Shown piece after piece: positions 2,906 to 22,786 of a DNA stretch of 30,757 bases. Location: the IMG/VR virus record IMGVR_UViG_3300047408_000089, positions 1 to 30,757 of that record; one strand, written 5' to 3'. The notes below the pieces were generated by a model. The model saw only the letters and a list, made by a program, of their open reading frames with translations, was not told the DNA's origin and did no database searches. Made by a program: the position numbers and the translations under genes. The stretch comes from a virus. Within the stretch, counting starts at the first letter, position 1; the number at the start of each line of letters is the position of its first letter.

Positions 2906-3177
2906 CGCGCCGCCCGCTTGGGACTGAAGGCGGATTGCTCGACGGGCTCGCCTTGCACGTAGCGCCAGACGAGCGTGCCGGAGAAGCAGTGCTTACCGAT
3001 CGGGTTCTTGACTTTGAACCGATCGAGCTCTCCGGCGGCCTGGGCGGCGGCAAAGCGAGAATTGCCCCACTGGAGAATCGCGCCCATATCGGCCGGCCCG
3101 AGTAGGAGACCGGCCTTGGCGCGCACGAGCGCGGCCTGTTGGGCCTCGTCATCGAGCCGCCAGGTCGTTTTGCTCAT
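2902..3177 (-). CDS. Putative winged-helix excisionase-like DNA-binding protein (91 aa)
   Basis: The middle of the protein (about residues 24-75) has the order helix-turn-helix (GPADMGAILQWGNSRFAAAQ) then a wing-like segment (FKVKNPIGKHCFSG). This resembles the MerR/excisionase layout used by phage Xis proteins, including a GELDRF-type turn after the recognition helix. It lies next to the lysogeny region, one gene from the divergent promoter, where excisionases and early control proteins are usual. The call is based on layout and position, not on a clear family match. A general early transcription factor is the alternative. Confidence 0.45.
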   Translation of the reverse strand: MSKTTWRLDDEAQQAALVRAKAGLLLGPADMGAILQWGNSRFAAAQAAGELDRFKVKNPIGKHCFSGTLVWRYVQGEPVEQSAFSPKRAAR

Positions 3178-3413
3178 GCCGTCTTCGCCCCAGTCGGCGC
3201 CGGCGAGGCGGGATCGTCATCCTCAATCGGGAACAACTCATCCGGGGTGACGTTGAGCGCCCGCGCGAGTCGCACGACGGTCGCGTAGTCCGTCGTGCGG
3301 ATGTCTCGCTTGCCGCTCTCGAGTAGCGAGATGAACGAATCGTCAACGCCGACGAGCTTCGCGAGCTCCAGTTGCGTTAGGCGAGCAATGCGACGAGCTG
3401 TGCGGAGTTCCAT
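3174..3413 (-). CDS. Cro/CI-like XRE regulator opening the early operon (79 aa)
   Basis: A single XRE domain fills residues 1-60: LTQLELAKLVGVDDSFISLL with ESGKRDIRTTDYATVVRLAR after it. A short acidic tail follows. ATG 3413 is used; the frame is open upstream, but there it crosses the operators and promoter. It is the first gene of the leftward operon, behind a near-consensus promoter at 3493-3521 with an operator-like site between -35 and -10. The small size and position at the head of the lytic-direction operon make it Cro-like. A CI-type repressor that is autoregulated is the other reading. The divergent XRE gene at 3659 would be its counterpart. Confidence 0.85.
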   Translation of the reverse strand: MELRTARRIARLTQLELAKLVGVDDSFISLLESGKRDIRTTDYATVVRLARALNVTPDELFPIEDDDPASPAPTGAKTA

Positions 3414-3415
3414 TT

Positions 3416-3506
3416 TGGCTAGCCGTTCGTTCCACTGAACCGCAGTCCCGGCGGCAGGTAAACACCTACCTGATGTGGTTAACCGTCTGCGCATTATGGT
3501 TAGCCG
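3416..3506. promoter_or_regulatory. Three operator-like sites, consensus TGGYTARCCG
   Basis: TGGCTAGCCG (3416-3425), TGGTTAACCG (3476-3485) and TGGTTAGCCG (3497-3506) share one core, and two of them are perfect 8-bp palindromes (GGCTAGCC, GGTTAACC). The upper two are 21 bp apart, two helical turns, and flank the -10 of the leftward promoter. The third abuts the regulator's start codon. This is the usual arrangement for an XRE repressor/Cro switch. Which of the XRE proteins binds is unknown. Confidence 0.75.
3456..3471. promoter_or_regulatory. Inverted repeat AGGTA-N6-TACCT in the leader
   Basis: AGGTA and TACCT are separated by six bases (AACACC), just downstream of the leftward transcription start. 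It has a different sequence from the three TGGYTARCCG sites, so it may bind a different regulator, or form a weak leader hairpin. Chance occurrence is possible given the short arms. Confidence 0.4.
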
Positions 3507-3521
3507 CTTGCCCGTTGTCAA
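3493..3521 (-). promoter_or_regulatory. Leftward sigma70-type promoter of the early operon
   Basis: On the minus strand TTGACA (3521-3516) is followed by a 17-nt spacer and CATAAT (3498-3493). This is a perfect -35 and a five-of-six -10 element at ideal spacing. Transcription would start near 3486, giving a leader of about 70 nt before ATG 3413. An operator-like sequence (3497-3506) lies within the spacer and overlaps the -10, so a bound regulator would block RNA polymerase. Confidence 0.8.
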
Positions 3522-3617
3522 GTGCCTATGCAATACTTCAACATCACTATTCGTGGTGGGTGCTCAATTTGGATAGACTATTGCTCGCTGCTGAAACTGG
3601 CCGAAAAGCCGCCCTAA

Positions 3618-3643
3618 CCCACGTTGACCAATATCAACGTGGG
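3618..3643 (+). promoter_or_regulatory. Perfect 10-bp inverted repeat before the rightward XRE gene
   Basis: CCCACGTTGA (3618-3627) and TCAACGTGGG (3634-3643) are exact reverse complements around a six-base loop. It ends 15 bases before ATG 3659. No T-run follows, so it is not a standard terminator. It could be an operator for the XRE protein or an RNA hairpin in the leader that affects ribosome access. Confidence 0.7.
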
Positions 3644-3658
3644 CTGAACAATGGGGCG

Positions 3659-3991
3659 ATGAATCCCGACCGTCTCGCCGACTTCGCCAGAGCCTTGGTA
3701 GAACAGCGGCTCAAACACCATCAGAAATATCCGACGCGCGCCGCCTTTGCGCGGGCGCTGGGGATTACGCGATCGACGTTACGCGCGCTGGAAGGGGGTC
3801 GCCAGAATCCGACGGACGAGACGCTCGAGAAGATCGCGAGAGTGCTCGGGACCACGGCGCATGCGTTGAAAGGCGAAGCACCGATCGCCGCGGACGATGA
3901 GCGGTTGCGTGACCTGGAAGAGGAAGACTTCGCCCACGCGCAGCGATTCCACCACGCCCCCGCCGCCGCCAAGATCGCCGCGCAGATCGGG
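3659..3991 (+). CDS. XRE-family regulator whose frame runs into the integrase region
   Basis: From ATG 3659 (GGGG a few bases upstream) the frame encodes an XRE domain: YPTRAAFARALGITRSTLRA with EGGRQNPTDETLEKIARVLG after it, about residues 22-65. An acidic linker with EEDFAHAQRFHHAP follows. Homology-like sequence fades near 3990, yet the frame stays open to 4420 as noise, so the natural stop is missing. From this point the integrase continues in the -1 frame. It lies divergent to the Cro-like gene, behind the hairpin, as expected for the lysogeny repressor. The end coordinate is where recognisable sequence ends, not a stop codon. Confidence 0.75.
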
Positions 3992-5031
3992 ACCGGGGCC
4001 TGCCTGTCGCCGCCGGCGTCGGGAAGATCCGCTGGGAAGACGCCGTCGATCTGCTGCGCGCGGACTACGCCAACAACGATCAGACGTCGTGGGTCAATCA
4101 AGAGCGCAGGATTCGGCTGCACCTGGCCCCCGTCTTCGACGGTCTGCGGCTCGCCGACATTCCCCCGGAGGCCTTCGCGCTGTATGCCACCGCCCGGCGC
4201 GAGGCGGGCGCCTCAGCCGCCAGCGTCAACCGCGAGCTCGCCATCGTGCGGCGGATGTTCGTGCTCGCCATGCAGGCGGGCAAGCTCCTGTATCGGCCGC
4301 ATATCCCCCATCTGCGCGAGCGGAACGCGCGGGCGGGGTTCTTCGAACGCGCGACCTTCGAGAGCGTGTACCAGCACCTGCCGGAGGCCCTGCAACCCGT
4401 CGTGTTGTTCGCGTACTTGACGGGGTGGCGCATCGACAGCGAGGTGCTGACGCGCGAATGGCGGCACGTCGATTTCGACGCCAACGAAATCCGGCTTGAT
4501 CCCGGGGAAACCAAAAACGGCGAACCGCGGGTCTTCCCGTTGACCAACGAGCTGCGCGCCCTGCTCCTCGAGCGCCAGACCGCCCGCGAGGCGGCGGCGG
4601 CCGCCGGCTACGTCTGTCCCTGGGTGTTCTTTCGATTGGTCGCGAAAGGCCGGGGCGGGCGGAAGTATCCGAAGAAGATCATCCGGTTCAATAAAGCCTG
4701 GGCGGCGGCGTGCACGGCCGCCGGTTGTCCGGGGCGAATCCCGCATGACTTCCGGCGCACGGCCGTGCGGAACATGGTGCGGAACGCCGTGCCTGAACGC
4801 GTCGCCATGCAGCTCGCCGGGCACCTGACGCGATCGGTGTTCGAGCGCTACAACATCGTGAGTCCCGGTGATCTCCTCGAGGCCAGAACGAAGCTGGACG
4901 GCCAGGTGGCGAACATGGCGAAACTAAAAGCGAAAGCCACACAACCAGCCACACAACGCCCTATTTCAGGGCATCCGCCCACTGAGACTCATGAAAATGC
5001 TAGCAAATTTGGAGGCGCCGCCCGGATTTGA
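3961..5031 (+). CDS. int: Tyrosine recombinase (integrase) lacking an own start codon
   Basis: The frame opens after a stop at 3910 and encodes the core-binding domain (DRDRGLPVAAGVGKIRWEDA onward) and a full catalytic domain. Visible catalytic features are Arg in TGWRIDSE, Lys in ETKNGEP, HDFRR (His codon 4744), GHLTR, and the nucleophile Tyr in ERYNIV (4849-4851). No ATG, GTG or TTG occurs in frame before GTG 4246, which lies inside the core-binding domain. The usual N-terminal arm-binding segment of 60-80 residues is therefore absent. Either a deletion fused it to the XRE gene out of frame, or a -1 shift makes an XRE-integrase protein. I see no canonical slippery heptamer. The stop lies inside the tRNA-Cys attachment core. 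Confidence 0.85.
   Translation, partial: RRRQDRRADRDRGLPVAAGVGKIRWEDAVDLLRADYANNDQTSWVNQERRIRLHLAPVFDGLRLADIPPEAFALYATARREAGASAASVNRELAIVRRMFVLAMQAGKLLYRPHIPHLRERNARAGFFERATFESVYQHLPEALQPVVLFAYLTGWRIDSEVLTREWRHVDFDANEIRLDPGETKNGEPRVFPLTNELRALLLERQTAREAAAAAGYVCPWVFFRLVAKGRGGRKYPKKIIRFNKAWAAACTAAGCPGRIPHDFRRTAVRNMVRNAVPERVAMQLAGHLTRSVFERYNIVSPGDLLEARTKLDGQVANMAKLKAKATQPATQRPISGHPPTETHENASKFGGAARI
4935..4956 (+). repeat. attP left-arm repeats (2 x AGCCACACAA)
   Basis: Identical 10-mers at 4935-4944 and 4947-4956, spaced 12 bp, lie within the integrase 3' end upstream of the tRNA core. The same motif recurs three times, in the same orientation, to the right of the core. The arrangement is that of integrase arm-type binding sites. 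Confidence 0.7.
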
Positions 5032-5053
5032 ACCGGGGGTGGAGGTTTTGCAG
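5010..5053 (-). other. attP core: 3' part of a tRNA-Cys (GCA) gene
   Basis: On the minus strand this reads from the anticodon loop (CTGCAAA) through the anticodon 3' stem, a T-arm (CCCGG-TTCAAAT-CCGGG), the acceptor 3' strand CGGCGCC, discriminator T and encoded CCA. The 5' half of a tRNA is absent; sequence further upstream does not form a D-arm or acceptor partner. Phages that integrate into tRNA genes carry exactly this 3' fragment so that the host gene is restored. The integrase stop codon lies inside it. Crossover would probably occur near the anticodon loop. Confidence 0.88.
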
Positions 5054-5076
5054 TCCTGCCAGTAATGCCGCAGACA

Positions 5077-5190
5077 AGTCACTTTTTAGCGGATTTGCTC
5101 AATGTTTTGCGCGATCAGGGAAATCAGGCGATTCTTGGAGTCACCACAAAAAACCGCGATTTTCCTAATAAAACCGCGAGTCACTTTTTT
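5077..5190 (+). repeat. Further direct repeats in the right attP arm
   Basis: AGTCAC occurs at 5077, 5139 and 5179; the outer two extend to AGTCACTTTTT. AAAACCGCGA occurs at 5150-5159 and 5170-5179, 20 bp apart. The stretch is AT-richer than the rest of the window. These may bind integrase, excisionase or a bending protein such as IHF. No ORF of note lies here. Confidence 0.55.
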
Positions 5191-5195
5191 ACTCC

Positions 5196-5228
5196 AGCCA
5201 CACAAAAAGCCACACGAAAGCCACACGG
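5196..5228 (+). repeat. attP right-arm repeats (3 x AGCCACAC)
   Basis: AGCCACACAA (5196-5205), AGCCACACGA (5208-5217) and AGCCACACGG (5219-5228) are spaced 12 and 11 bp, about one helical turn. With the two left copies they make a two-plus-three pattern around the core, as in lambda attP (P1, P2 and P'1 to P'3). Confidence 0.7.
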
Positions 5229-5251
5229 AACTCGGATAGAAGTATGCGCGG

Positions 5252-5446
5252 ATGACCAAGACCTACGTCGGCGACGGCGTGTACGTCCGGTGGGACCCGG
5301 AGTTCTGCTGGCTGGAACTGACGACCGAGAACGGGATCACCGTCACGAATCGAATCGTGTTGGAATTCGACGTCTACGTGGCGCTCGTGGCCTACGTGGA
5401 CGCCCTGCAGCGTCGGGCGCGTGACGCGCAGGAGCCACGCGAATGA
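5252..5446 (+). CDS. Small conserved phage protein (64 aa), function unknown
   Basis: The product MTKTYVGDGVYVRWDPEFCW and onward looks like a compact beta-rich domain (alternating strands to about residue 38) with a C-terminal helix (LVAYVDALQRRARDAQ). Similar short YVGDGVY-type proteins are, from memory, common in phages and plasmids but uncharacterised. It is one of two rightward genes lying between attP and the converging tail genes. The Shine-Dalgarno is weak. It may be expressed from the lysogen together with the lysogeny genes. Confidence 0.6.
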   Translation: MTKTYVGDGVYVRWDPEFCWLELTTENGITVTNRIVLEFDVYVALVAYVDALQRRARDAQEPRE

Positions 5447-10267: not shown

Positions 10268-12916
10268 TTACCGGAGCGTGAGCTGCTGCGTGGACTTCAG
10301 CGACTTCATGATCTCGGCGGCAACCTGGCGGGCCACGTCGGCCGCGGTGCCGTTCACATAGATATGGTTCGTGACACTTGTCCCGCCAACGCCGCCGGGA
10401 ATGACGTCACTCCCCGCCGGCAGGTTGACGAGCTCCGGGCCCTTCTCGCCGACGATCGCCAGGCCGCCGCTGAAGTTCTGCACGCCGCCGGCAAACTGCG
10501 GAAACGACGATTTGCCCGAATAGAGATCGTCCCAATTTTTCGGCAGTTCACCATGCGGCCCAAGCGGGACGCGTGCGCCGGACTTCGAGAGGAGGTAATT
10601 CTGCCCAAAGGCGGTCTCCGTCGTCGAGCCCGGCAGCTTCACGCCGCCCTGCAGCGTCTCCATTTGATCCACGGCGGCTTTCACCGTGGCGATCGAGTCG
10701 GTCGCTTTCTTGGTGACATGGTCGAGGACTTCGTCGGCTTTGTATTCCACCTGGCTGGCCGCGAGATCGGCTGCGGCGTAGGTCAGCCGCGTGAAGTCGG
10801 CGATCTGCTGTGAGGTCGCGCCCGACTTCTGCATCGCCGCGACGTTCGCGTCGGCCACCTCGTAAATCTTCGCGATCTGATACGACGCCGCGTCGAGCGA
10901 GCTTTTCATCGCGTCGTCGTGCTGCTTCGCATACAACTGCTCGATCTGGCTGGCCGCCTTCTTTTCGGCGTCGATCCTCCCCTGGGTCTGGTCATTCTCC
11001 GCCTTGCTCAACCCGACGATGTTCGTCTCCTGCTGCTTGACGTGGCCTTCCTCGATCTTCTGAATCTCTTTGTACGCCTTGTCGTACGCCTTCACCATTT
11101 CGTCAAGCGCCTTCGCTTGCGCGGCCGACAGTTGGGGAAACGCCGCCGCGACCGTCGCAATCGAATTGCCCGCCTTCAGGTAGTACTCGGCCTGCTCGAC
11201 GATCTTCGGGTTGATCAGCGCGACGGTGTCGGCATAGGACTTCCCCGTTGAATTGAGTTCGGTCCACGCGGCGGCGTACTTATCCGCCGCGGCCTGGCCG
11301 TCCTGGTGCGCCTTCGTCAAGAGCTTTTGTTGCTCGGCGCTCAGGCCGGTCGCGACGGTGATGTCGGTGACCTTCGCGTGCAGGTCCTGCAAGTGCAGCG
11401 CGTAATCAAGGGTGGACTGGCTGATGCCCTGGAGGGTCGGGACGCCCTCCTGTTCCAGCTTGGTGAGCCGGTCCCAGGCCGCGTTGTAATTGTTCGCGGC
11501 CGTGGTCGCCGCGGCGACCACGCCGTTGAGTTCTCGGATCTTGTCGATGGATAACCCCGTCGCCTCGGCGACATTTTTTAGGGAGTACCCCATCGACAAG
11601 AGCCCTTTGGCGGCCTCCTCGGTCGCGTCGGCGTCCGACTTCCCGGCCTTAGCGGCGTCGTCCAGCAGCCGGTTGTAGACGTCCTGCGTGGCCGCTGCCG
11701 ATTCGGTCTTGAGGTCGAGATCGCCGACGAGTCCCGTCAGTCGGCCGAACCAGGCGCCGGCCGCCGGCAGCGCATTGATCGCCATGTCCGTGAGTTGGGC
11801 CACGCCGAGCTTCGTGGACTGATAGACCAAATCCATGTCGTGGGTAAACCCAGACGCCGACTGCCCGACGCGGTTCCAGGCCTCCTCCGTTTCGGCCTTC
11901 ATCAGGTTCATTTCCGCGCGGAAGGCCCGCGACGCATCGACATCGGCCGTGGACCACGTATCCCCGAGCTCCTGACTTTTGGCGTTGAGATCGGACAGCG
12001 GTTTGAGCAGTGTGGGCAACATCTCGCGGCCTTGCCGCCCGAACAAATCGAAGGCCACGGCGGACAGGTTCGTGGACGCCGCGTTCTGTCGCATCGCGTC
12101 ACTGATGGCCAGGATTTGCTGGTCGCCCTGGAGCCCTTGAATCGTTTGCAGGGACAGCCCGATCTTCTCGAGGCCTTTCGAGACGGCATCGCTGTTTTCT
12201 TCGAGCCGCTTTTGGAACATAAACAGCGAGTCACCGAACGCCCCGAAATCCCCGCCGGTCGCCACAATCGCGAACCGGAGGTCAGACATCGCTTCCACTG
12301 GGATATTGAACTGGCGCGACAGCTTGCCAATCTGGAGGCCGACTTCGTCGGCGTCGTGGGCCAGGGAGATCAACTCGCCCCCCAGCAGACTCGCCACGGT
12401 GACCACGCCGCCGATGGCGACGCCGGTCGGCCCGAGGGTTTCAGCGAACGCGAGCACGCCGGCCTTGGCGGTGCCGATGGGATTTTCAATCGCGGTCTTT
12501 AGATCGAACTTGGTCGCCCACTGACTGAACGCCGTGCCCGTGGCGTCGGCTCCGTCCTTCAGGCGCAACAGTTCTTCAGAGGCGCCGCGCGCCCGGTCGG
12601 CCAGGTTCTGCACTTGCGGCGGGACCGTCTCGCCGATCGCGGTCAATTTGTCGACCGCTTGCTGCGCAATCCCGCCCATCTTGAGCAGTTCATCGGTGGT
12701 GAGCATCGCGGCGCCGCCAATCTGTTCGATCGCCGTCGTCGCCATGATCGCCTGCTGCACGATCTTCTGTCCCGAGAGGGAATCGGCGATCTTATCGATC
12801 GCGACCGCCGTTTTCCCGGCGCCGGTTTCAAACCCCTTGAGCGACACTTCGGCTTGCTCGCAGGCCTTCGTGAAGGACGTGAAATCGGCGTTGAAAATGC
12901 CGGTCAGTTGGGCCAT
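10268..12916 (-). CDS. Tail tape measure protein (882 aa)
   Basis: The protein is long, helical and Ala/Gln/Lys-rich. A hydrophobic stretch at about residues 148-185 (LGPTGVAIGGVVTVASLLGG) could cross the membrane during DNA entry. It follows the tail chaperone pair, the conserved place for this gene. By the known rule of about 0.15 nm of tail per residue, the tail would be roughly 130 nm. The C-terminus has a glycine-rich segment (GGLAIVGEKGPELVNLPAGS) often found at the end of tape measures. ATG 12916 follows the chaperone stop by four bases. Confidence 0.92.
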   Translation of the reverse strand: MAQLTGIFNADFTSFTKACEQAEVSLKGFETGAGKTAVAIDKIADSLSGQKIVQQAIMATTAIEQIGGAAMLTTDELLKMGGIAQQAVDKLTAIGETVPPQVQNLADRARGASEELLRLKDGADATGTAFSQWATKFDLKTAIENPIGTAKAGVLAFAETLGPTGVAIGGVVTVASLLGGELISLAHDADEVGLQIGKLSRQFNIPVEAMSDLRFAIVATGGDFGAFGDSLFMFQKRLEENSDAVSKGLEKIGLSLQTIQGLQGDQQILAISDAMRQNAASTNLSAVAFDLFGRQGREMLPTLLKPLSDLNAKSQELGDTWSTADVDASRAFRAEMNLMKAETEEAWNRVGQSASGFTHDMDLVYQSTKLGVAQLTDMAINALPAAGAWFGRLTGLVGDLDLKTESAAATQDVYNRLLDDAAKAGKSDADATEEAAKGLLSMGYSLKNVAEATGLSIDKIRELNGVVAAATTAANNYNAAWDRLTKLEQEGVPTLQGISQSTLDYALHLQDLHAKVTDITVATGLSAEQQKLLTKAHQDGQAAADKYAAAWTELNSTGKSYADTVALINPKIVEQAEYYLKAGNSIATVAAAFPQLSAAQAKALDEMVKAYDKAYKEIQKIEEGHVKQQETNIVGLSKAENDQTQGRIDAEKKAASQIEQLYAKQHDDAMKSSLDAASYQIAKIYEVADANVAAMQKSGATSQQIADFTRLTYAAADLAASQVEYKADEVLDHVTKKATDSIATVKAAVDQMETLQGGVKLPGSTTETAFGQNYLLSKSGARVPLGPHGELPKNWDDLYSGKSSFPQFAGGVQNFSGGLAIVGEKGPELVNLPAGSDVIPGGVGGTSVTNHIYVNGTAADVARQVAAEIMKSLKSTQQLTLR

Positions 12917-12920
12917 GCGG

Positions 12921-13417
12921 TTACTCGCGCTCGCGTTGTTGCTCGGTCAACATCTCGACCAGGACCTCGTAATCGTCCTGGCTCAAGTCGCGGACCCACT
13001 CGACACGCCAGCCGCAGCGTAAGGCGATGGCGAGATCGCTGGCGATGTCTTCGCGCCATCCTGGCCGTTTTTTCGGGCCTCGCGGCGCGCGGTGATCCGC
13101 GCTTCGTGCGCGTCGAGGGCATTGTCGATTTCTTGGAAGGTGTCCATGTCGAGCTGATTCAGCGCGCTCTCGTCGAAGGGCTCGGGGCGCCCGTCGAACC
13201 CGAGAAACGACCAGCTCGTGATGTACGCCACCATCCGGGTTTTGCCGTATTGCTCGTAATCGATCCGCGCCCGCTCGCCGGCGCGGATGTCTTTGTAATA
13301 GCCCGCCTGGGCGTGGCGTTGCTCGCCCGCGTTGAGCTCGCGCTTGACCTCGATCCACTCCCCGTCTGAGAGCGTCAGCCGTTCGGTCTCCGGCTGCACG
13401 AAGCGACACCGCCCCAT
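12921..13417 (-). CDS. Tail assembly chaperone, frameshifted long form (gpGT-like, 165 aa)
   Basis: The short-form frame shifts by -1 at A AAA AAC and continues KKRPGWREDIASDLAIALRC to DDYEVLVEMLTEQQRERE, ending at 12921. The total is 165 residues (497 nt with one base read twice). The extension is well-formed helical protein without an in-frame start of its own. In lambda the T part binds the tail tube protein and joins it to the tape measure complex. The same role is inferred here. Confidence 0.88.
12983..13417 (-). CDS. Tail assembly chaperone, short form (gpG-like, 144 aa)
   Basis: ATG 13417 has a strong Shine-Dalgarno (GGGGAGG). The protein starts MGRCRFVQPETERLTLSDGE and is charged and helical, ending in a Ser/Pro/Ala-rich tail when read without frameshift. 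It lies between tail tube and tape measure. Like lambda gpG, it probably coats the tape measure protein during tail assembly and is absent from the virion. A -1 shift site at 13067-13073 makes the longer form. Confidence 0.88.
   Translation of the reverse strand: MGRCRFVQPETERLTLSDGEWIEVKRELNAGEQRHAQAGYYKDIRAGERARIDYEQYGKTRMVAYITSWSFLGFDGRPEPFDESALNQLDMDTFQEIDNALDAHEARITARREARKNGQDGAKTSPAISPSPYAAAGVSSGSAT
13067..13073 (-). promoter_or_regulatory. Programmed -1 ribosomal frameshift site A AAA AAC
   Basis: In the short-form frame the codons read cgA AAA AAC, an ideal X XXY YYZ heptamer. Slipping one base back gives AAA AAA CGG and leads directly into the long-form sequence. Tail chaperone pairs in siphoviruses commonly use such sites. 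Confidence 0.9.
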
Positions 13418-13430
13418 ACCTCGACCTCCC

Positions 13431-13709
13431 CTAGTGTTCCGGTGGCCCTAACTGCGCGATGAGGGACGACCCGCCGATCTGGATCGACTGCACGCCCCAC
13501 GCCCACATACCGTCACGGGCGCCGTCGCGCGGGGCCGTGAAGAGGAGCGGGCGCTGCCGCGCCATGAACGGCTCACACCGCTCGATCGTCGCGGAGAGCG
13601 TCCATTGCCCCTTGACGCGCACGATCGACCACGTCTTGAGCGTGACCGCCGCGCGATAGCCCCACAAGATCGACGCCGCGGTCCCATGGATCCGCAGCTG
13701 GTCGAACAT
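13431..13709 (-). CDS. Minor tail-region protein (92 aa)
   Basis: The product begins MFDQLRIHGTAASILWGYRA and looks beta-rich with several tryptophans (WGYRAAV, WSIVRVKGQWTLSA, WAWGVQSI). It lies between tail tube and chaperone genes, read in the same direction. No family is recognised. A tail accessory role is inferred from position. Confidence 0.65.
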   Translation of the reverse strand: MFDQLRIHGTAASILWGYRAAVTLKTWSIVRVKGQWTLSATIERCEPFMARQRPLLFTAPRDGARDGMWAWGVQSIQIGGSSLIAQLGPPEH

Positions 13710-13721
13710 GGCGCGGGCCGA

Positions 13722-14123
13722 TCAGGGGCCGACAGCCATCGTCCACGGCCCGCCGGCCTTGAACGTCGAGGTAATCTTCGGGGCGCCTTTGACCGAGCAG
13801 TCGATGTCGGCGTCGAGATAGGCGAGGCCAGACCACTTGAAGAGGGCCTCGGTGGTGTTGGGCGCGAGCTCGAGGAGCCCGGGCACGGGCGCCTTGGTCG
13901 CTTCAAAGATGGTGGTTTCGGCGCTGTTCCAGAACCCGCCGAGCGAGCCGCTGACGTCGGGGAGACCCGGCACATACACCAGGTTGTCGTCCCCGAAGCA
14001 CGTCACGTCTTCGTAGGTGTTCTTGAAACTGGCCTTCCAGGTGTTGAGGGAGATGACTTCGACCGGCGTGGTGCCCGCCGCGTCGTAACTCACCTTGCCG
14101 TACCGTCCCGTAAGAATCGCCAC
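13722..14123 (-). CDS. Major tail (tube) protein (133 aa)
   Basis: The start is GTG 14123 with AGGG about 9 nt upstream, giving (V)AILTGRYGKVSYDAAG. The small beta-rich protein contains ISLNTWKASFKNTYEDVTCF and DVSGSLGGFW, patterns shared by siphovirus tail tube proteins, and a C-terminal strand region. It lies between head-tail completion and chaperone genes, where tube genes belong. Copies would stack as hexamer rings around the tape measure protein. A longer upstream frame is rejected because it runs over the preceding gene. Confidence 0.78.
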   Translation of the reverse strand: MAILTGRYGKVSYDAAGTTPVEVISLNTWKASFKNTYEDVTCFGDDNLVYVPGLPDVSGSLGGFWNSAETTIFEATKAPVPGLLELAPNTTEALFKWSGLAYLDADIDCSVKGAPKITSTFKAGGPWTMAVGP

Positions 14124-14155
14124 GTGTCTACCCTGCTTTCTGTTCGATGTCCCCG

Positions 14156-14596
14156 TTACGCCCCAGGAATCGAGGCTTGCACGCGATAGTTGCCGCCGCG
14201 GTGTTGCCAGCGAATCGTGTCGTCCACTTCGTCCACTTCGGGATAACGAAAGCGCCCTTCTCGACACGTCCCCATGTGGACATAGCCGGGAATCGTGAGC
14301 GGTTGATCTTCGAGTAGTTGATCGATGCGATGCGCCGCGGCCTTGACGTCGGCGCCCGTCCGTTCGAGCGCGACCGCCTTGATCATGTAGACCACGTCCT
14401 CATAGCCGCGGCGGCCAAACACCGGTTCATCGTCAGCGGTCACGAGGGACACGATCACGAAGCGGGTCGCCTTCGCTTTCGCGACGCCGAAGTACACGCC
14501 GTCGGGCATCAGGCTCGCGAGCGTCGCATCCGCCAAGAGCACGCCGACCACGGCGTTGTCAATGGCACTCGAATCGGGCACGGTGATCGGGCTCAT
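14156..14596 (-). CDS. Tail terminator/completion-like protein (146 aa)
   Basis: The product (MSPITVPDSSAIDNAVVGVL onward) has an N-terminal helix with LLADATLASLMPDGVYFG, a strand with VIVSLVTADDEP, and HRIDQLLED. This order is like the DUF3168/gpU-type tail terminator group. ATG 14596 overlaps the gp10-like gene by ATGA. Such proteins cap the tail tube at the neck. Assignment rests on order and motif pattern. Confidence 0.7.
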   Translation of the reverse strand: MSPITVPDSSAIDNAVVGVLLADATLASLMPDGVYFGVAKAKATRFVIVSLVTADDEPVFGRRGYEDVVYMIKAVALERTGADVKAAAHRIDQLLEDQPLTIPGYVHMGTCREGRFRYPEVDEVDDTIRWQHRGGNYRVQASIPGA

Positions 14597-15030
14597 GGCT
14601 CCCCGGTGACCTCCAGGCCTTGCCGCTCGAGCAGGGCCCGCAGTTGTTCGTACATCTGCTTGCGGCGCTTCATCACGGTGCGGACAAACACGTGCTTGGG
14701 CGGCTGCGCGGTCGCGCCCCACATCGCGCCGGTGCTCTTCCCGCCCTTCCAATGCCGCGCCTGCGTCCCGTTCTCGAAAATCCAGGCATGGAACGCGGTG
14801 TTCTTGACCCGGGCGAGGGCCCCGAAGGGATTCGCCGTCACCTGTACGGACAGGCCCCGCGCCAGATTGCCCGAGTGCCGATGCGCGTCGTACTCCTCAC
14901 GGATCTCAGCCTCGGCCCCTTGCGCCGCCGCGGCGACATCCGCGCCGCCTTCGCCCGCGAGCTCGGCCGGTAAGGTCCGCAACGCCTCGCGCAATTCATC
15001 CAGGCCGGTGAACGTGAAGGTGTTGCTCAT
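14593..15030 (-). CDS. HK97 gp10-like head-tail protein (145 aa)
   Basis: From ATG 15030 the protein shows the family pattern. An N-terminal GLDELREALRTLPAEL is followed by a helix with AAAQGAEAEIREEYDAHRHSG, a basic GNLARGLSVQ strand, and FENGTQARHW. In the HK97 gp10/minor tail family the 'SGNLARG' and 'ENGT' segments are typical. It overlaps both neighbours by ATGA. It probably works at the neck or in completing the tail. Confidence 0.82.
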   Translation of the reverse strand: MSNTFTFTGLDELREALRTLPAELAGEGGADVAAAAQGAEAEIREEYDAHRHSGNLARGLSVQVTANPFGALARVKNTAFHAWIFENGTQARHWKGGKSTGAMWGATAQPPKHVFVRTVMKRRKQMYEQLRALLERQGLEVTGEP

Positions 15031-15383
15031 GCGACCACCTCCGCACACACGAGCTCGAGCGTCCGATGGTGTTCGTCGAGGTCCCGGACCGTGATCACGT
15101 TGAACACCCGCGCCGCCAGCGCGAGACGGACGGCGGTCGTGACGTCAGCCCGATACCGTCCGCGCGCCAGATGCGTCTGGGTCGCGATCACCGTGCCCGC
15201 TTCTCCCATCTCGCCGCCCCCGCCCCGTCGCCCGGGCGCCGCCGTCAGGCTGACCGACCAGGTCGGCGGATCGGCGTCCTGCCACGCCGGGGTATACCCG
15301 CCGTCGCCGTCTGGCGTGCCCGCAGCCGGGACCTGGACGGTCACCACGGTGCGATACGACCCGGCGCCTGGCGTGCCCTTCAT
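15027..15383 (-). CDS. Head-tail joining protein, SPP1 gp16-like (118 aa)
   Basis: The small beta-barrel-like protein has SYRTVVTVQVPAAGTPDGDG, WQDADPPTWSVSLTAA and a C-terminal VFNVITVRDLDEHHRTLELV. This strand order with a late 'DLDEHHRTLEL' is typical of the phage head-tail joining (stopper) family. It lies between connector gp6-like and gp10-like genes. It would close the portal channel and join the tail. Confidence 0.82.
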   Translation of the reverse strand: MKGTPGAGSYRTVVTVQVPAAGTPDGDGGYTPAWQDADPPTWSVSLTAAPGRRGGGGEMGEAGTVIATQTHLARGRYRADVTTAVRLALAARVFNVITVRDLDEHHRTLELVCAEVVA

Positions 15384-15706
15384 GCCATCGCCACGTCGTG
15401 ATAGGCGCGCAGGAGCTCGCGCACGAGGACACTTGGGCCGGCGTCGGTGTCGGGTCGCGGCGGCGGGTCGAGGTCATCCCCGCGGAACCGATCGAGCTCG
15501 CCCACTTGCACCAGGATCGCGGCGACGACGACGGGCGGGACGGTCGCCGGGGTCCAGGCCGCCACGATGGCCCTCGAGGCCGCCGTGACTGAGCACCAGT
15601 TCAGGATGTGCGCCTCGGCCTGATCCACAAGGAGTTGGGTATCGACGTCCTCATCGGTCGTCGTGATCCGCAATCGCTGCTTCGCCTGGTCGAGCGTGAC
15701 AAACAT
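15380..15706 (-). CDS. gp6-like head-tail connector (108 aa)
   Basis: The sequence MFVTLDQAKQRLRITTTDED with DVDTQLLVDQAEAHILNWCS matches the helical gp6-like adaptor family that docks under the portal. ATG 15706 is preferred; a GTG two codons earlier (15712) is possible. The C-terminal helix VLVRELLRAYHDVAMA also fits. The stop overlaps the next gene by ATGA. Confidence 0.85.
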   Translation of the reverse strand: MFVTLDQAKQRLRITTTDEDVDTQLLVDQAEAHILNWCSVTAASRAIVAAWTPATVPPVVVAAILVQVGELDRFRGDDLDPPPRPDTDAGPSVLVRELLRAYHDVAMA

Positions 15707-15715
15707 GGCCACGGA

Positions 15716-16315
15716 TCACCGCCGCCGGTTGTCGTCAAAGACTTGTTGCCAGTCGCGGCCGGCCGGGCCTTGCGGACCGGGGCCGCCGTCCTTCCCGTCT
15801 TTGCCATCGCGCCCGCGCTTGACCTTGAGCGTCCAGGCCTTCGAGCCGTCGCCCGGTTTCGTCGCGGTCGTCGTCTGGCAGTGCCACTCCGACCCGCTCC
15901 AGGTAACGCTGTCGCCGGGGTCGTACGTCTTCCCCTCGGTCCACACGCCGCGGTAGAGCGCGACCGGGAACGACGCCGTCCCGATTTCCTTGACGCGCGC
16001 ACCTTGGGCCGCCGTAATTACGAAGGACCGCTCGTCGCGTTGCGTGACACTGAGGTCCTCGAAGCCGAGGCCATCGATCCCGTGGTCGCCATCGCGGCCG
16101 GCGGGTCCTGGCGGGCCGGGCACGGGCGCCAGCGTCTCGAGCACGGCCACGCGTTCCCGCAAGGGGCCGACGGCGGTCGTCTGCGAGACGACCGCAGCGA
16201 GTTGGGTTTCGGCGACGGTCATCCGGTGCGCGAGCGGGCCGACCATGCGCGCGACATAGTCGCGAATGACGGGGGTCATCCCGTTGACGAGGGCCGCGAG
16301 GTCCTCGGGGGTCAT
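15716..16315 (-). CDS. Collagen-like protein with carbohydrate-binding-like module (199 aa)
   Basis: An N-terminal helix (residues 1-60) may trimerise. A collagen-type Gly-X-Y run follows (GPPGPAGRDGDHGIDGLG). A beta region then has GVWTEGKTYDPGDSVTWSGS and EWHCQ, typical of CBM5/12-like chitin- or glycan-binding folds. A second Gly-X-Y run (GRDGKDGKDGGPGPQGPAGR) ends the protein. It lies between portal and connector genes and overlaps the portal start region by ATGA. The likely role is a trimeric head or neck fibre that binds surfaces or glycans. Confidence 0.75.
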   Translation of the reverse strand: MTPEDLAALVNGMTPVIRDYVARMVGPLAHRMTVAETQLAAVVSQTTAVGPLRERVAVLETLAPVPGPPGPAGRDGDHGIDGLGFEDLSVTQRDERSFVITAAQGARVKEIGTASFPVALYRGVWTEGKTYDPGDSVTWSGSEWHCQTTTATKPGDGSKAWTLKVKRGRDGKDGKDGGPGPQGPAGRDWQQVFDDNRRR

Positions 16316-17691
16316 GCGGCCAGCGCCTTCGTGAGGAGGTCGGTCACCAGCATCGACAACTGTCCCGGCGGCAAGGCGGGCGCCGCCATCGGCGCCGGCT
16401 CCGGTGCGCTGAACGGATCCGCCGCGTCGCGCTGGGCGAGCGCCTTGAGGCTGAACATCTGCTGCTGCATGTACGGCGTATCGCCGCCCTCGACCGGGCC
16501 GAGGCCGAAGTACCGCAGGCGCGCTTCATCCGGCGACATCGCGCCGGCGCCGATCGCATCGGCCGCGGCTTTCGTCTTCGTCGCCGTGTCCATCCAAATC
16601 AGATCGTCGATGTCGAATTCGGTCCCATAGTCCGTCCCGGCCAGGCCGAGGCCGTCATCGAGCACGGTCTCAAAGTTGGTCGTCAACGCTTGGATGGCCT
16701 GCGAGTAATAGAGCTGCGTCATCGCGTCGAGTTGCACGCCCCGGGGGATTTCGGCCGCGCCGATCATCCAGGCCGGCACGTGAAAGACGCTGCAGATGTT
16801 CGCGGCCGTCCAGCCCAGTTGCGCGATCAGCTCGGCATCCACCGCGTTCATGGTTAATTGCGTGTATTTGATGTCGGCCGTGATGACGGCGACCTTGCCG
16901 GCGTTGGCGGCCCCGTTAAAGGCATTCCAGTCGGTCTTCGCTTGCGTGAGTTGTTCCTGGGTCATGCCGGCCGGCGCCGTGATCAACCCGCTCGGGCGCG
17001 CGCCGTTCGTGAAGAACGCGCCGGACTGTTGCTGAATCGCCAAGCCTTGCATCGCCGCCGACGCGCACGCATAGATCGGCGACATTCCGACCAGGGGATG
17101 GAATAAGCACACCATCCGGTCGTGGATGATCTCGGAGGCCGGCACAATGAAGGGGTCCGGGATGTCCACCAGCTCGCCGCTCAAGTTGTCCCGCTGCAGT
17201 CGGTAGTACACGCCGCCATCGGGCGCGATCAGCGTGGTCACGCGCATCGGGTCGAGCACATAGAGAGCGACGACGACGCCACGCGCATCGCGCTCTTTCA
17301 AGATGTAGGCGTTGCCCCACATCAATTTCGACGTGATCCACTGCTCGACGAATTTCGGCGTGGTCTGATACCGATTCGGCTTGCGGAGCACTGGGCTGAA
17401 CGCGGGCGAGCTCGCCTCTTCCCACACGCCATCGGCGTTCTCTTCGACCAGGCGCAACGTCAACTTGCCGATGTCCTGCGCGATGAGCGTGACGCACGCA
17501 AACACCGGCGCATACGCGACGACCTGGTCGCGGCGGGCCTCGACGTTGACTTGCCAGGCGCCGGTATACGGCTCGCGCACCACGAGGGGAAACCACCCGC
17601 CGCCACTCGTCGCGCCCGGGCTGTACGGCGCCGCGTAGGTCTTCGCCGTGACCTCGACGCGCCGGCCGAGCAGCGTGACGCCGAAGGTCAT
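16312..17691 (-). CDS. Portal protein (459 aa)
   Basis: The protein matches the HK97-type portal family in order and motifs. It has VFACVTLIAQDIGKLTLRLV near the N-terminus, KPNRYQTTPKFVEQWITSKL, WGNAYIL, VYYRLQRDN, HDRMVCLFHPLVGMSPIYAC, and VFHVPAWMIGAAEIPRGVQL later. The C-terminal ~60 residues are Pro/Ala-rich. Twelve copies would form the DNA channel at one capsid vertex and bind terminase. ATG 17691 overlaps the upstream stop by ATGA; the longer open frame overlaps the previous gene and is rejected. Confidence 0.93.
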   Translation of the reverse strand: MTFGVTLLGRRVEVTAKTYAAPYSPGATSGGGWFPLVVREPYTGAWQVNVEARRDQVVAYAPVFACVTLIAQDIGKLTLRLVEENADGVWEEASSPAFSPVLRKPNRYQTTPKFVEQWITSKLMWGNAYILKERDARGVVVALYVLDPMRVTTLIAPDGGVYYRLQRDNLSGELVDIPDPFIVPASEIIHDRMVCLFHPLVGMSPIYACASAAMQGLAIQQQSGAFFTNGARPSGLITAPAGMTQEQLTQAKTDWNAFNGAANAGKVAVITADIKYTQLTMNAVDAELIAQLGWTAANICSVFHVPAWMIGAAEIPRGVQLDAMTQLYYSQAIQALTTNFETVLDDGLGLAGTDYGTEFDIDDLIWMDTATKTKAAADAIGAGAMSPDEARLRYFGLGPVEGGDTPYMQQQMFSLKALAQRDAADPFSAPEPAPMAAPALPPGQLSMLVTDLLTKALAA

Positions 17692-18194
17692 CGCCGCCGG
17701 GCCGCGGTCACCGTGAAGGACTGTGGGGCCGAGAGGACGCCGCCCGCGCGCACCGCGACGGGGATCACGCCCGCGCCGGCCGCCGTCAGATCCGCCGTCG
17801 CCGAGGCCGAGGTCTCGGAGTCCACCGTCGTCGGCAGGTCGGCGCCATCCCACACGATGACGCTGTCAGGGCTGAAGCCGGTCCCAGCGACCACGACGGG
17901 GACACTCGCCGTCCCGGCCAGCGCGGTCGAGGGCGTCAGGGTCGTAATCGTGGGGGCCGCGGGCGGTGTGTCCGTCCAGCCCGCAATCGAGACGAAGCCG
18001 ATCCCGCGCAGCGTTTCCGCCAACGCGCGATCGGTCACGGCGTACGTCTCGCCTTCGAGATGGATGTTCTCGTTTTCCGTGTGGTAGACCCGTGCGGTCA
18101 CGTCCACCGAGTCCTCCGCCTGCGTGTCAGGCCGGAGCCGGTCATCGCCCGCGGCGCGGCCGTGGTGGCGTGTCCCGTGTGCCTCAGCGACCAT
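17688..18194 (-). CDS. Ig-like (IPT/TIG) domain protein, possible head decoration (168 aa)
   Basis: Residues ~1-75 hold a basic His/Arg lead and a short helical segment (TDRALAETLRGIGFVSIAGW). The rest is one IPT/TIG-type domain: PTITTLTPSTALAGTASVPV, then VVAGTGFSPDSVIVWDGADL. The pattern 'P-x-I-x-x-L-x-P' followed by 'GTGF' and 'V-x-W-x-G' is typical. Ig-like domains on phage particles often serve as surface decoration and weak glycan adhesion. It lies between capsid and portal genes, overlapping the portal start by ATGA and the preceding gene by 11 bp. Confidence 0.75.
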   Translation of the reverse strand: MVAEAHGTRHHGRAAGDDRLRPDTQAEDSVDVTARVYHTENENIHLEGETYAVTDRALAETLRGIGFVSIAGWTDTPPAAPTITTLTPSTALAGTASVPVVVAGTGFSPDSVIVWDGADLPTTVDSETSASATADLTAAGAGVIPVAVRAGGVLSAPQSFTVTAARRR

Positions 18195-18390
18195 GTGCTT
18201 TTCTCCCTGTCTCCCGCGGCGCCGGGGCGACGTGCCGCCGCGCAAAGCCGGCTTGCTCGAGCGTCTCGACCATCGACGCGTCGACGTCGATCGGGTCGCC
18301 GACCACGCGCCAGGTGCCATCGAAAAACCCGTCGCGGATCACGGCCATCGTGACCCGCGGCGGGATGGTTGACTCGTCCATCTGGTTCAT
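18184..18390 (-). CDS. Small head-region protein (68 aa)
   Basis: The product begins MNQMDESTIPPRVTMAVIRD and has an FFDGTWRVVGDPIDVDASMV strand-loop and a basic C-terminus. ATG 18390 overlaps the capsid stop by ATGA, and the 3' end overlaps the Ig-domain gene. The family is not recognised. A minor head component or head-completion factor is inferred from position. Confidence 0.6.
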   Translation of the reverse strand: MNQMDESTIPPRVTMAVIRDGFFDGTWRVVGDPIDVDASMVETLEQAGFARRHVAPAPRETGRKAHGR

Positions 18391-20279
18391 GCGGTGTAGG
18401 TCGCGACGGTGTATTGCACGCAGCCCGCGCGGGCCTTTTTCCAGTTGATGAACCGCTCGGCCCGCAACCCGACCAGGTTGTTTTGCCAGAACGACGTCAT
18501 GACCGTCGTCGCCAGGGCCGGATTGTCGGGCGCCGAGTCCATCTGGACCGACGCTTCTTGCGACACGTCGATCGTGACGCCGCCGTCATCCGCGTAGAGG
18601 ATGGCGTCCGGCTGCACGAGCGCGACGGTCGTGCCCATCGCCTGACTCGGAATGACCGTGATGCCGCCCATGACGGTCCCGCCGTTGAGACTCAGCGAGG
18701 GAAACAGCGGTTGCCCGAGGGCGTTGAGCGCGTTCGAGAGCGCTAGCGCATTCGTCGTCGACATCAGGAGCACGGCGCCGCCGATCGGAATCCCGGCGGC
18801 CGACATCGCCGCCGCGAGGGCTTGAATGTCGGTGCGCGCGTTGGCCGGCGTCGGGCCCGCGGTCGTGATCGGGGTGACGCCATTCGTCACCGAGCCCGGC
18901 GAGACGCCGGCCACGGGCGCCTTACTCGGATCGGTAAATTCGACGTCGAGGAAGGCCGCGATCCCGTTGATCATGTCCTGCCGGATGACCGCTTCCGCCG
19001 ACGGCGTCGATGTGCGCGCGAGCTCGAGCGTGATCACGATGATCCCGGCGCACTTCGTGATCGTCAGCGAGACCGATCCGAACTGCAGCTTCCCGACGGG
19101 CTTCGGCGCCCCTTGCCCGACCCATTGATACGTGCCGCCGCCGGTCTGGCTGGCGATCGTCACGTTGAAAGGCACCTGCCGGAACCCCGGCACTTTGCCC
19201 AGGATGGTCGCCGGCCGTAGAAGCGCGAGAAACTCATTCGAGAGCGGCATCAGCGGCGCCAACGGGCCAGCCCAGGTCGCGTCCGTCGTGGTGCCGGCCG
19301 CGACCGCCGCCTTGAACACGAGGCCGACTTCTGGCGTCGAGTCGTCCCACTGCTTGGCGTACTGTTCCGCCTGCATCAGGTTGCCCTTGCAGGCCGCGAG
19401 CCCCTGGACGAAGCGGACGAAACCGGTTCCCTTGGGGAGTTGCGATCGAACCTGGATGATCGGCACGCTGCTGCTGCGTAGGTCACTCCCCGCGCCCGCC
19501 GTGGTCGTCGGCGTCACGGCCGTCGCCCGCGTGACCATCGTCGCCTCGAGGGCGCGCAGGCGCACGAGATGCGCGTCGATGGCCTTGAGCTCGCTCGCGA
19601 GCCCGTCGTACTCCTCGGTCTGGGACTGGTCGAGGGTCGTGTCGTCCGACGCGGTCATGAGGGCCGTCATCCGCGCGTGCTTGGCGGCGCGGGTGTTCTC
19701 GAAGCCGGTGATCTGTTCGTGGGTGGTTTTATGTTCCATGGGACGCGCGCCCTTGTCGACGCGCACGATCGGGAGCGGGTCCCTGTCGCGGGACGGATGA
19801 CGGCCAGTCGCGGCCAGGTCGAGTGACTTGATGCTGTGAATCGTGGCCTCGGCGTTCGCCGGGATCGCGACGAGCGAGAGTTCGAGGACTTCGGTTTTCA
19901 GAAACCGGATCCCGCCGGTCGCCTTGTTGAAGCTGTCCTCGATCGAGCGAAACCCAATCGAGACGCCGGCGAGCAAGCCCGCCTTGACGGACTGCCAGGC
20001 TTCCTCGATGCGGTCGCGCACGACGCCGGGATCGGCGACCGTCGGCAGCGAGGCCGTAAAGGCCAGGCCCTCCGCGGTCGGCGGGCTGAACGTCACCGAT
20101 CCGACGGGTTTCTTGGGGTCGTGGTACAGCAGGAGCGGGAGGGACTTCGCGAAGGTGACCCCCAGCGGCTCGATCACGTCGCCCATGCGATCGGGCGTCG
20201 GCGTCGAGGCGATGCCGGTGATCGTCCGTTGCTCGGCGTCAACGGCTTTGATGGTGAGGAGCGAATACGCGCGGGTCAC
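18387..20279 (-). CDS. Fused HK97-type prohead protease and major capsid protein (630 aa)
   Basis: Residues 1-165 are a U35-type prohead protease: GIASTPTPDRMGDVIEPLGV, the His motif LLYHDPKKPVG, and the Ser-region motif LLAGVSIGFRS. Residues ~181-260 are a helical delta/scaffold segment starting MEHKTTHEQITGFENTRAAK. From ~270 the HK97-fold capsid protein follows (KGTGFVRFVQGLAACKGN, then WAGPLAPLMPLSNEFLALLR). Protease and capsid are usually separate genes. The start is GTG 20279. A possible internal start at ATG 19739 (AAGGG about 8 nt upstream) could give free capsid protein. Self-cleavage is expected in either case. Confidence 0.9.
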   Translation of the reverse strand: MTRAYSLLTIKAVDAEQRTITGIASTPTPDRMGDVIEPLGVTFAKSLPLLLYHDPKKPVGSVTFSPPTAEGLAFTASLPTVADPGVVRDRIEEAWQSVKAGLLAGVSIGFRSIEDSFNKATGGIRFLKTEVLELSLVAIPANAEATIHSIKSLDLAATGRHPSRDRDPLPIVRVDKGARPMEHKTTHEQITGFENTRAAKHARMTALMTASDDTTLDQSQTEEYDGLASELKAIDAHLVRLRALEATMVTRATAVTPTTTAGAGSDLRSSSVPIIQVRSQLPKGTGFVRFVQGLAACKGNLMQAEQYAKQWDDSTPEVGLVFKAAVAAGTTTDATWAGPLAPLMPLSNEFLALLRPATILGKVPGFRQVPFNVTIASQTGGGTYQWVGQGAPKPVGKLQFGSVSLTITKCAGIIVITLELARTSTPSAEAVIRQDMINGIAAFLDVEFTDPSKAPVAGVSPGSVTNGVTPITTAGPTPANARTDIQALAAAMSAAGIPIGGAVLLMSTTNALALSNALNALGQPLFPSLSLNGGTVMGGITVIPSQAMGTTVALVQPDAILYADDGGVTIDVSQEASVQMDSAPDNPALATTVMTSFWQNNLVGLRAERFINWKKARAGCVQYTVATYTA

Positions 20280-20305
20280 GCGCGCCTAGTGTCGGGGCGG
20301 GTGCC

Positions 20306-20515
20306 CTATTTGCGCCGGACGAAAGGCGGCTTCTCGCCGTAGTCGGCCACGAATTCGTTGACCGCCTCGCGCAGGATCCCCGACAGGCCGGTGCGATTGT
20401 CGCTCGCGACGCGTTGGATCTCGAGGCGTTGCGCGGGCGTCACGCGGACTTCAATGCGCGCGGTGGCCGCCACGTCCGCGAGCGGGGGCCGTCCCGTTCG
20501 GCGTTTCGCACTCAT
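20306..20515 (-). CDS. Ribbon-helix-helix-like DNA-binding protein (69 aa)
   Basis: After a basic lead (MSAKRRTGRPP) the sequence ARIEVRVTPAQRLEIQRVAS has the strand-helix of RHH proteins, followed by GLSGILREAVNEFVADY as second helix. Such proteins are dimeric regulators of about this size. ATG 20515 overlaps the alpha-CTD-like gene by ATGA, so the two are probably made together. A role in late gene control or its shut-off is possible. Confidence 0.7.
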   Translation of the reverse strand: MSAKRRTGRPPLADVAATARIEVRVTPAQRLEIQRVASDNRTGLSGILREAVNEFVADYGEKPPFVRRK

Positions 20516-20829: not shown

Positions 20830-22367
20830 CCGAGCACCAGCATTGAATAGGTCGGCCGCTTCTCGGCCGCCATGTAATCCCGCCGATGCAACGCCATCAC
20901 GAGCGCGCTGGCCCCGTCGATCCGTTCCGTCGAGACTTTCTTCGAGAGCTTGAGATTCCCCGCCGGATCCGATTCCACCGCAATGTTCGAGATGTTCCAG
21001 CGGAGCACCGGGTGCCCGTCATGCCGCAGCGTCCGCGAGAGAATCGCCGCCTCGAGGGATTTCGTCGGGGCCGACAACGTCGCGTACCCTTGGCGAATCT
21101 CCACGAGCGCGAACCCGTCCTGTTCCTGGAGGCGCGTCACCAGATCCCTGGCATTCCACGGATCGAAGGCAATTTCCCGCACGTCGAATTCCGCCCCCCA
21201 GGCCCGCAGGGTCTGGCGGACATACTCATAATCGACCACGTTGCCGGGCGTCGCCACGAGCCAGCCCTCGCGGGCCCACTGGTCATACGGCACCCGGTCC
21301 CGGCGCACGCGCTCGGCCATGTTGTCCGCCGGCACGAAGAACTGCGCCAGGACGTCGAAGCCGGAGCCCTCGTCATCCGGAAACAGGGCGACGATCGCCG
21401 TGAGATCCCGCGTCGAGCTCAAGTCCATCCCGACGTAACAGCGGCGGCCGCGCAACCGCGCGCGGTCGAACGCCGGCACGGCGCACGCATCCCAGGCCGC
21501 CAGGGCGATCCAGCGGGCGGCTTGTTCCGTCCACTGGTTCAGGTACAGCCGGCGAAAGGTGTTCTCTTGCGCGGGGATTTCTTTGGCGCGCGCACACGCC
21601 ATCCGCATTTCTTCGAGGCTGCGGAAATCGCCCAGCGCCGGATTCGCCTTATGCCACACGCGTTCGTCGGTCCAGTCCGCGTCGATCGGCGCGTCGTACA
21701 ACAGGGGCAGGAACGTCGGATCGATCGCCGGAGACTCCTGGACTTTCCGCGCGTGCGTATAGAGCTCCCACAGAATCGAATGCCGGTCGTAGCCCGCGGT
21801 GGAAATCGCGAGTGTCATCGGGTGCCGCCGCGCCCCTTGGGACGTCGTCAACACGTCCCACAGTTCGCGGTTCGGGGCCGCGTGCAGCTCGTCGTAGATC
21901 ACCGCCGACGCATTGAAGCCGTGCTTTGAGTACGCCTCGGCCGAGATCGCGCGATAGAAACTCCCGCTGGCGCGATGCACGATCCGCTTCTGCGAATCCA
22001 CCAGTTCACACTGCGCCAGCAATTCAGGATCATTCCGGATCATTTGCGCCGCGACGTGGAACACGAGCGCCGCCTGGTCCTTGTCCGCCGCCGCGGAATA
22101 CACCTCGGCCCCCATCTCCCCATCGAACAACAGAAAGTACAGCGCCAGCGCCGCCGCCAGTTCGGTCTTCCCGTTCTTACGGGGCAGCATCAATAAACAC
22201 TGGCGATAGACGCGCCGGCCATCCAGGCCGGTCCGAAAGAGTCGCTCGAGCAGGCGGCGTTGCCACGGCCGCAGCGCAAACGGCTGCCCCGCAAACACGC
22301 CCTTGGTGTGCGTCAGGTTGTTGATCACCCGAATGGCGCGGTGCGCGTGCTGCAGGCGTCCTCTCAC
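20826..22367 (-). CDS. terL: Terminase large subunit (513 aa)
   Basis: The N-terminal ATPase has a deviant Walker A (LPRKNGKT, residues 61-68) and Walker B with catalytic acid (AVIYDELHA, Asp159-Glu160). The C-terminal nuclease has acidic strands YVGMDLSSTRDLTA, REIAFDPWNARDL and DGASALVMAL. This is the Terminase_1-type phage packaging motor, which cuts concatemers and pumps DNA through the portal. The start is GTG 22367, overlapping the small subunit stop by GTGA; the longer frame from 22385 is less likely. It lies directly after TerS. Confidence 0.95.
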   Translation of the reverse strand: MRGRLQHAHRAIRVINNLTHTKGVFAGQPFALRPWQRRLLERLFRTGLDGRRVYRQCLLMLPRKNGKTELAAALALYFLLFDGEMGAEVYSAAADKDQAALVFHVAAQMIRNDPELLAQCELVDSQKRIVHRASGSFYRAISAEAYSKHGFNASAVIYDELHAAPNRELWDVLTTSQGARRHPMTLAISTAGYDRHSILWELYTHARKVQESPAIDPTFLPLLYDAPIDADWTDERVWHKANPALGDFRSLEEMRMACARAKEIPAQENTFRRLYLNQWTEQAARWIALAAWDACAVPAFDRARLRGRRCYVGMDLSSTRDLTAIVALFPDDEGSGFDVLAQFFVPADNMAERVRRDRVPYDQWAREGWLVATPGNVVDYEYVRQTLRAWGAEFDVREIAFDPWNARDLVTRLQEQDGFALVEIRQGYATLSAPTKSLEAAILSRTLRHDGHPVLRWNISNIAVESDPAGNLKLSKKVSTERIDGASALVMALHRRDYMAAEKRPTYSMLVLG

Positions 22368-22786
22368 GCCAGGACACCCGCCCACTTACTCGCCGTCTCG
22401 CGCGGCGGGGTGGTCGCCATCCGGGACCGGCTCGCCGGCTCAAGCCCAAAGAGGGCGTAGAACGGCCGAAGCGAGGCCGCTAGGGCCCGTTCTCGGCCCG
22501 CGTCATAGTCCGGGCCCCCGCGGGCCTGCGCGTTCGCGGTGAAGCTCGCCTGGAGCTCGCAGAGCGTCCCAAACGCCAGCGCATCGGCCGGGGTCAACGT
22601 CCCCAGGCCGAGACAAACCGGCGCTAACCCGTCCCAGACCCGATCCGCAGCCGTCGACAATGCCGGCTTGACCACCGGGCCATCCGGCGCGGCGACCGCG
22701 GCACCCAGGCGCGTCTTACTCGGGTTCCCCCGTAAGGCGCGCAACGCGAGCGGTTCACGACGACGGCCACTATTGGCATTGCCCAT
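22364..22786 (-). CDS. terS: Terminase small subunit, P27-like (140 aa)
   Basis: The N-terminal MGNANSGRRREPLALRALRG then NPSKT is typical of P27-type small terminases. A helical centre (LTPADALAFGTLCELQASFT) and a C-terminal SRMATTPPRETASKW complete the family pattern. It recognises the packaging site and brings TerL to it. The upstream 90 bp hold strong dyads that could be that site. ATG 22786 follows a GGGG-containing leader. Confidence 0.85.
   Translation of the reverse strand: MGNANSGRRREPLALRALRGNPSKTRLGAAVAAPDGPVVKPALSTAADRVWDGLAPVCLGLGTLTPADALAFGTLCELQASFTANAQARGGPDYDAGRERALAASLRPFYALFGLEPASRSRMATTPPRETASKWAGVLA

Follow-up and report, generated by a model that had tools for sequence, protein, structure and literature searches.

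The DNA analysed here, hereafter the window, is a 30,757-base virus record in IMG/VR and contains genes for capsid, prohead protease and terminase. A 493-base stretch of an exonuclease gene is found at both contig ends (713-1205 and 30265-30757), with 89.7% identity between the copies; the gene is exonuclease VIII-like (phrog_412/DUF3799) and its neighbours differ between the two positions.

On the minus strand, positions 3174-3413 encode XRE(-), a divergent, small, Cro/CI-like XRE regulator of 79 aa (HTH_3 E=1.5e-10, on 3177-3416), homologues of which occur in all four relatives searched. A third small XRE/HTH gene is present at 2532-2819, also on the minus strand (HTH_31 E=3.3e-13), and the region 2096-2919 is 92% identical in the related record G036. 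On the plus strand, a second regulator, XRE(+), occupies 3659-3985. It is recognised by its HTH_3 match (E=2.3e-10; 2.9e-10 on the longer P0001) and by alignment to its relatives, and it lacks the C-terminal tail, which comprises about 47 aa in the related locus L003. Fifteen bases before XRE(+) lies a perfect 10-base inverted repeat with a 6-base spacer (3618-3643), found only once in the window even when three mismatches are allowed, which is likely the operator of XRE(+). Downstream, positions 3988-5031 of the plus strand encode the remnant of a tyrosine integrase, with core-binding and catalytic domains, but with neither an arm-binding (AB) domain nor a start codon. The stop codon of this frame falls inside the attP core (5009-5053), so that the core or its edge supplies the codons for the C-terminal FGGAARI; the L003 integrase ends likewise.

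Reading frames at the junction

Direct reading of the frames shows that XRE(+) starts at ATG 3659 and remains open to 4420, with no stop codon before the integrase DNA. The integrase frame, one base off, is open from 3913 to its stop codon at 5029-5031 and is preceded by stops at 3898 and 3910. Its first ATG, GTG or TTG is the GTG at 4246-4248, midway through the core-binding domain, so that the integrase does not qualify as a translatable gene. GC content by codon position switches frame at about 3960-4020. Nucleotide homology with L002, the nearest integrase relative, extends over 3985-5247 (84% over 1265 bases) and has an abrupt left end at 3985, no homology being detected between L002 and the window over 3172-3984; homology with L003 begins at 3991. 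These starts, together with the GC switch, place the junction between XRE(+) and the integrase at about 3983-3990. Beyond it, the XRE frame runs on over integrase DNA for 435 bases (3986-4420). This run-on carries no signal in itself, since the equivalent frame, open for 143 codons in the window, is open for 21, 138, 57, 57 and 34 codons in L002-L006.

The initial annotation, in which an XRE regulator without a stop codon was seen to run into an offset integrase frame and to fade where the integrase begins, was thus right: the frames, the HTH_3 and Phage_integrase matches and the codon-position GC pattern all agree with it. The same is true of its observations that the integrase has no start codon before the middle of the core-binding domain and that the arm-binding part is missing, as the AB domain present in L002 and L003 is absent upstream of 3985 in the window. 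Weak, scattered matches were all that appeared among those listed when the L002 and L003 AB domains were compared with the window by tblastn, the best having an E of 0.009 on the other strand (8494-8411); relocation of the AB domain elsewhere in the window was consequently rejected. Replacement of the tyrosine integrase by a serine integrase was also rejected, a search of the window having given no Resolvase family match.

What remains of the integrase is well preserved. The catalytic domain is matched by Phage_integrase (PF00589, E=7e-16, 58.9 bits for a cut-off of 27.1) and, as the initial annotation supposed, looks intact: in the alignment, the conserved residues R, K, HxxR, H and Y are retained. 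The core-binding domain aligns over its whole length with those of L002-L006 and the phrog_1 integrase match (E=6.8e-35) starts from residue 10, while none of the Pfam SAM-like models reached 0.001 against the window.

Relatives and the attachment site

Integrase relatives were collected from viral contigs (20) and from a genome scan (79 further loci), giving 99 loci (L002-L100). The two nearest, L002 (90% amino acid identity) and L003 (76%), encode complete enzymes with an AB domain, of 381 aa from a TTG start at 3851 and of 390 aa from a GTG start at 3848, respectively; in both, about 50 N-terminal residues precede the part in common with the window. Sixty-nine of the 99 loci, those in which the match begins within the first 80 query residues, could be used to look for a start codon, whether or not an AB domain was recognisable. 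Of these, 59 have such a codon in frame and 35 aa or more upstream, three run off the contig end and seven have none (L026, L034, L051, L052, L063, L074 and L096). From three-frame reading, these seven integrases appear broken or truncated, which would mean that an integrase deprived of its head is no rarity in this family. L026 (at 3933) is, after the window, a second case in which integrase homology begins at the boundary between AB and core-binding domains and there is no usable start; it differs in that the upstream frame is unrelated and ends at a stop codon, and in that the contig belongs to a bacterial MAG.

XRE(+) aligns with its counterparts in G002 (the record of L003), G038 and G037 up to 'APAAAKIAAQ', with a shared motif around 'IAADDERLRDL...AHAQRFHHAPAAAKIAAQ', and the three regulators extend 47 or more residues past the end of the window match. 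Identity to these closest relatives is 32-33%, so that none of them is the parent allele of the window's XRE(+). A single-sequence scan of the viral contigs gave no XRE(+) relative, the alignment A1 matched the contig of L003 alone and the L003 XRE query matched only itself. The phage collection gave, as best match, the regulator of a Thermoanaerobacterium phage (E=7e-4, with 46% of the query covered), and a weak match was obtained in 3 of the 27 bacterial genomes holding integrase relatives.

In G002 and G038, the order of the module reads XRE(-), XRE(+), two small genes and integrase, all separate and complete, the G038 integrase being of a different sort. In G037 (L201), the order is XRE(-), XRE(+), integrase, and the stop codon of XRE(+) overlaps the integrase ATG at 5195-5198, which suggests that, in this relative, the two genes are translationally coupled.

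Over its 45 bases, the attP core is identical to part of L033; it also corresponds to the 3' half of tRNA-Cys(gca), whole genes for which were found in 4 of the 12 loci scanned (L023, L024, L033 and L035). In L033, copies of the core are seen at 5109, after the integrase, and at 7105, at an intact tRNA-Cys, with a second integrase-like piece at 6032; these possibly correspond to tandem elements. The window contains five copies of AGCCACAC for 0.66 expected, all on the plus strand beside the attP core: a pair to the left (4935-4954) and a triplet to the right (5196-5226). All five stand at the same offsets from the core in L002 (-78, -66, +183, +195 and +206). In L003, a single exact copy stands at -78 and AGCCACCC variants are arranged in a repeat with equal spacing, and AGCCACAC is absent from 200 bases before to 330 bases after the core in L004-L007, L023 and L024. 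Judging by this layout, the repeats are putative arm-type sites. Since the attP core and these sites are untouched, the DNA targets of the lost AB domain would still be in place. The relatives also give a clear attP anatomy for this integrase family, with a tRNA-Cys core and two plus three arm-type repeats. As attP is flanked on both sides by phage genes, the record would represent phage-form DNA rather than a prophage end. Copies of the XRE operator in the attP arms were considered and rejected: the inverted repeat is absent from attP and half-sites with one mismatch, although more numerous in the window than expected (18 vs 7.4), do not occur within 4880-5260.

Origin and age of the junction

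Most probably, the lysogeny module of a temperate tailed phage has undergone a real and recent deletion that joined XRE(+) and the integrase out of frame. The initial annotation had offered such a deletion as one of two possibilities, and it is supported by relatives in which the genes are separate, complete and in the same order. An in-order deletion would have removed the end of XRE(+), any small genes after it, and the start and AB domain of the integrase. The remnants would then be joined out of frame and XRE(+) would gain a foreign tail of about 140 residues. With no start codon or recognised frameshift signal serving the remnant, functional integrase would no longer be made, and the phage would fail to integrate in spite of an intact attP core and arm sites. 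It would then grow lytically or rely on the integrase of a relative. What should fail, strictly speaking, is integration; the loss of lysogeny itself may follow from it. Measured on L003 (about 2991 to 3995), the missing stretch is about 1.0 kb, a length that is taken from L003 and may be wrong, as identity to the closest XRE(+) relatives does not exceed 32-33%. Instead of a simple deletion, the event may have been the swap of a module, faulty at its right end, since immunity regions are mosaic here and no nucleotide homology was detected between the window and L002 over 3172-3984.

The age of the loss was approached by polarising substitutions with L003. The branch leading to the window shows 12 nonsynonymous and 44 synonymous changes, and that leading to the intact L002 shows 18 and 43 (Fisher p=0.40; ambiguous changes, 7 and 11), whereas about 72% of changes would be nonsynonymous in a neutral gene (fraction 0.72). 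Some window-specific changes (G to D, G to A) affect positions conserved in L002-L006 and favour relaxation a little, which the overall total does not. An old pseudogene was rejected on this basis. Relaxed selection is not seen on the remnant and the loss looks recent, the intact remnant and the intact sites both pointing to a young event. It should, however, be noted that the lack of relaxed selection is equally expected if the remnant still gives a functional product.

Other observations bear on the phage group and its host. G036 (L198/L199) has a terminase 99% identical to that of the window, and the two records show 91-94% nucleotide identity over 12596-20508 and 20830-22819. G036, a record that may be a fragment, has neither a Phage_integrase nor a Resolvase match and carries other small genes where the lysogeny module would sit. 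With such a close relative having no integrase match, the lysogeny module appears labile in this group. The nearest relatives of the integrase in the genome scan are mostly in Acidobacteria MAGs, so that the host is probably an uncultured acidobacterium.

Alternatively, the contig may join or collapse strain variants of a mixed phage population, the real phages having separate and complete genes. Such an assembly artefact is unlikely, although several observations lend it some weight. The source is an IMG/VR virus record, the 89.7% identical contig ends suggest either that strains were mixed in the assembly or that the stretch is truly duplicated, and a degenerate 26-base pattern found no second copy of the junction in viral_contigs. 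However, the junction links two genes of one module in the order and orientation seen in relatives, which a random chimera would not favour, and a clean join within two coding frames would require a shared k-mer.

The second possibility raised by the initial annotation was that a -1 shift yields an XRE-integrase hybrid in which the XRE domain replaces the AB domain; a small contig error would place the two parts in frame. In such a recombinase, a single HTH would both bind the operator and steer integration, coupling immunity and integration in one protein. The XRE frame is indeed open through the junction, that of the integrase is also open upstream of the junction, and the remnant is under normal constraint. 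No slippery X_XXY_YYZ heptamer is found in the XRE frame over 3900-4420, a scan that argues against a programmed -1 frameshift and says nothing against a single-tRNA slip or an assembly error. Programmed frameshifting was rejected on this ground and because the genes are separate in relatives. Moreover, no XRE part is directly joined to an integrase among the relatives examined, and attP retains the tandem AGCCACAC sites of the AB-bearing L002 while lacking the inverted repeat found beside XRE(+). The hybrid, unsupported in its -1 shift form, is thus very improbable.

Least probable of all is a short, Cre/Xer-like recombinase reduced to core-binding and catalytic domains and translated from a near-cognate codon, such as the in-frame CTG at 4000 or ATC at 4027, because no convincing ribosome-binding site is seen by eye before either codon and the putative arm sites show the conservation of those used by an enzyme that depends on an AB domain, even though simple tyrosine recombinases exist in some phages (PMC8138268).

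The deletion, by comparison, is decay of an ordinary and known kind for which no new mechanism is necessary. The window would represent a temperate phage at an early stage of losing integration, its enzyme decapitated and its DNA targets untouched.

Comparison with known systems

According to PMC8138268, the AB domain is an acquired regulatory domain of mobile-element integrases, and simple tyrosine recombinases are found in 27 phages vs 410 phages with an AB domain. In lambda Int, this domain is described as binding the arm sites (PMC4880445). The window resembles the AB-domain phage integrases of these two sources in its core-binding and catalytic domains, its attP core with flanking arm-type sites and its tRNA attachment. 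It differs in that its copy has lost the AB domain and the start codon, both of which are present in L002 and L003.

Losses in the lysogeny module are documented in mycobacteriophages. As reported in PMC3203893, TM4 derives from a temperate parent by loss of about 3.5 kb including the integrase and attP, and the segment missing from D29 carries, in L5, the repressor. As in these two cases, an otherwise normal phage would have lost DNA in or near its lysogeny module, as seen against intact temperate relatives. However, whereas attP was lost from TM4, the window keeps attP and the arm sites together with two thirds of the integrase; and whereas D29 lost the repressor-bearing segment, the regulator of the window is truncated and fused.
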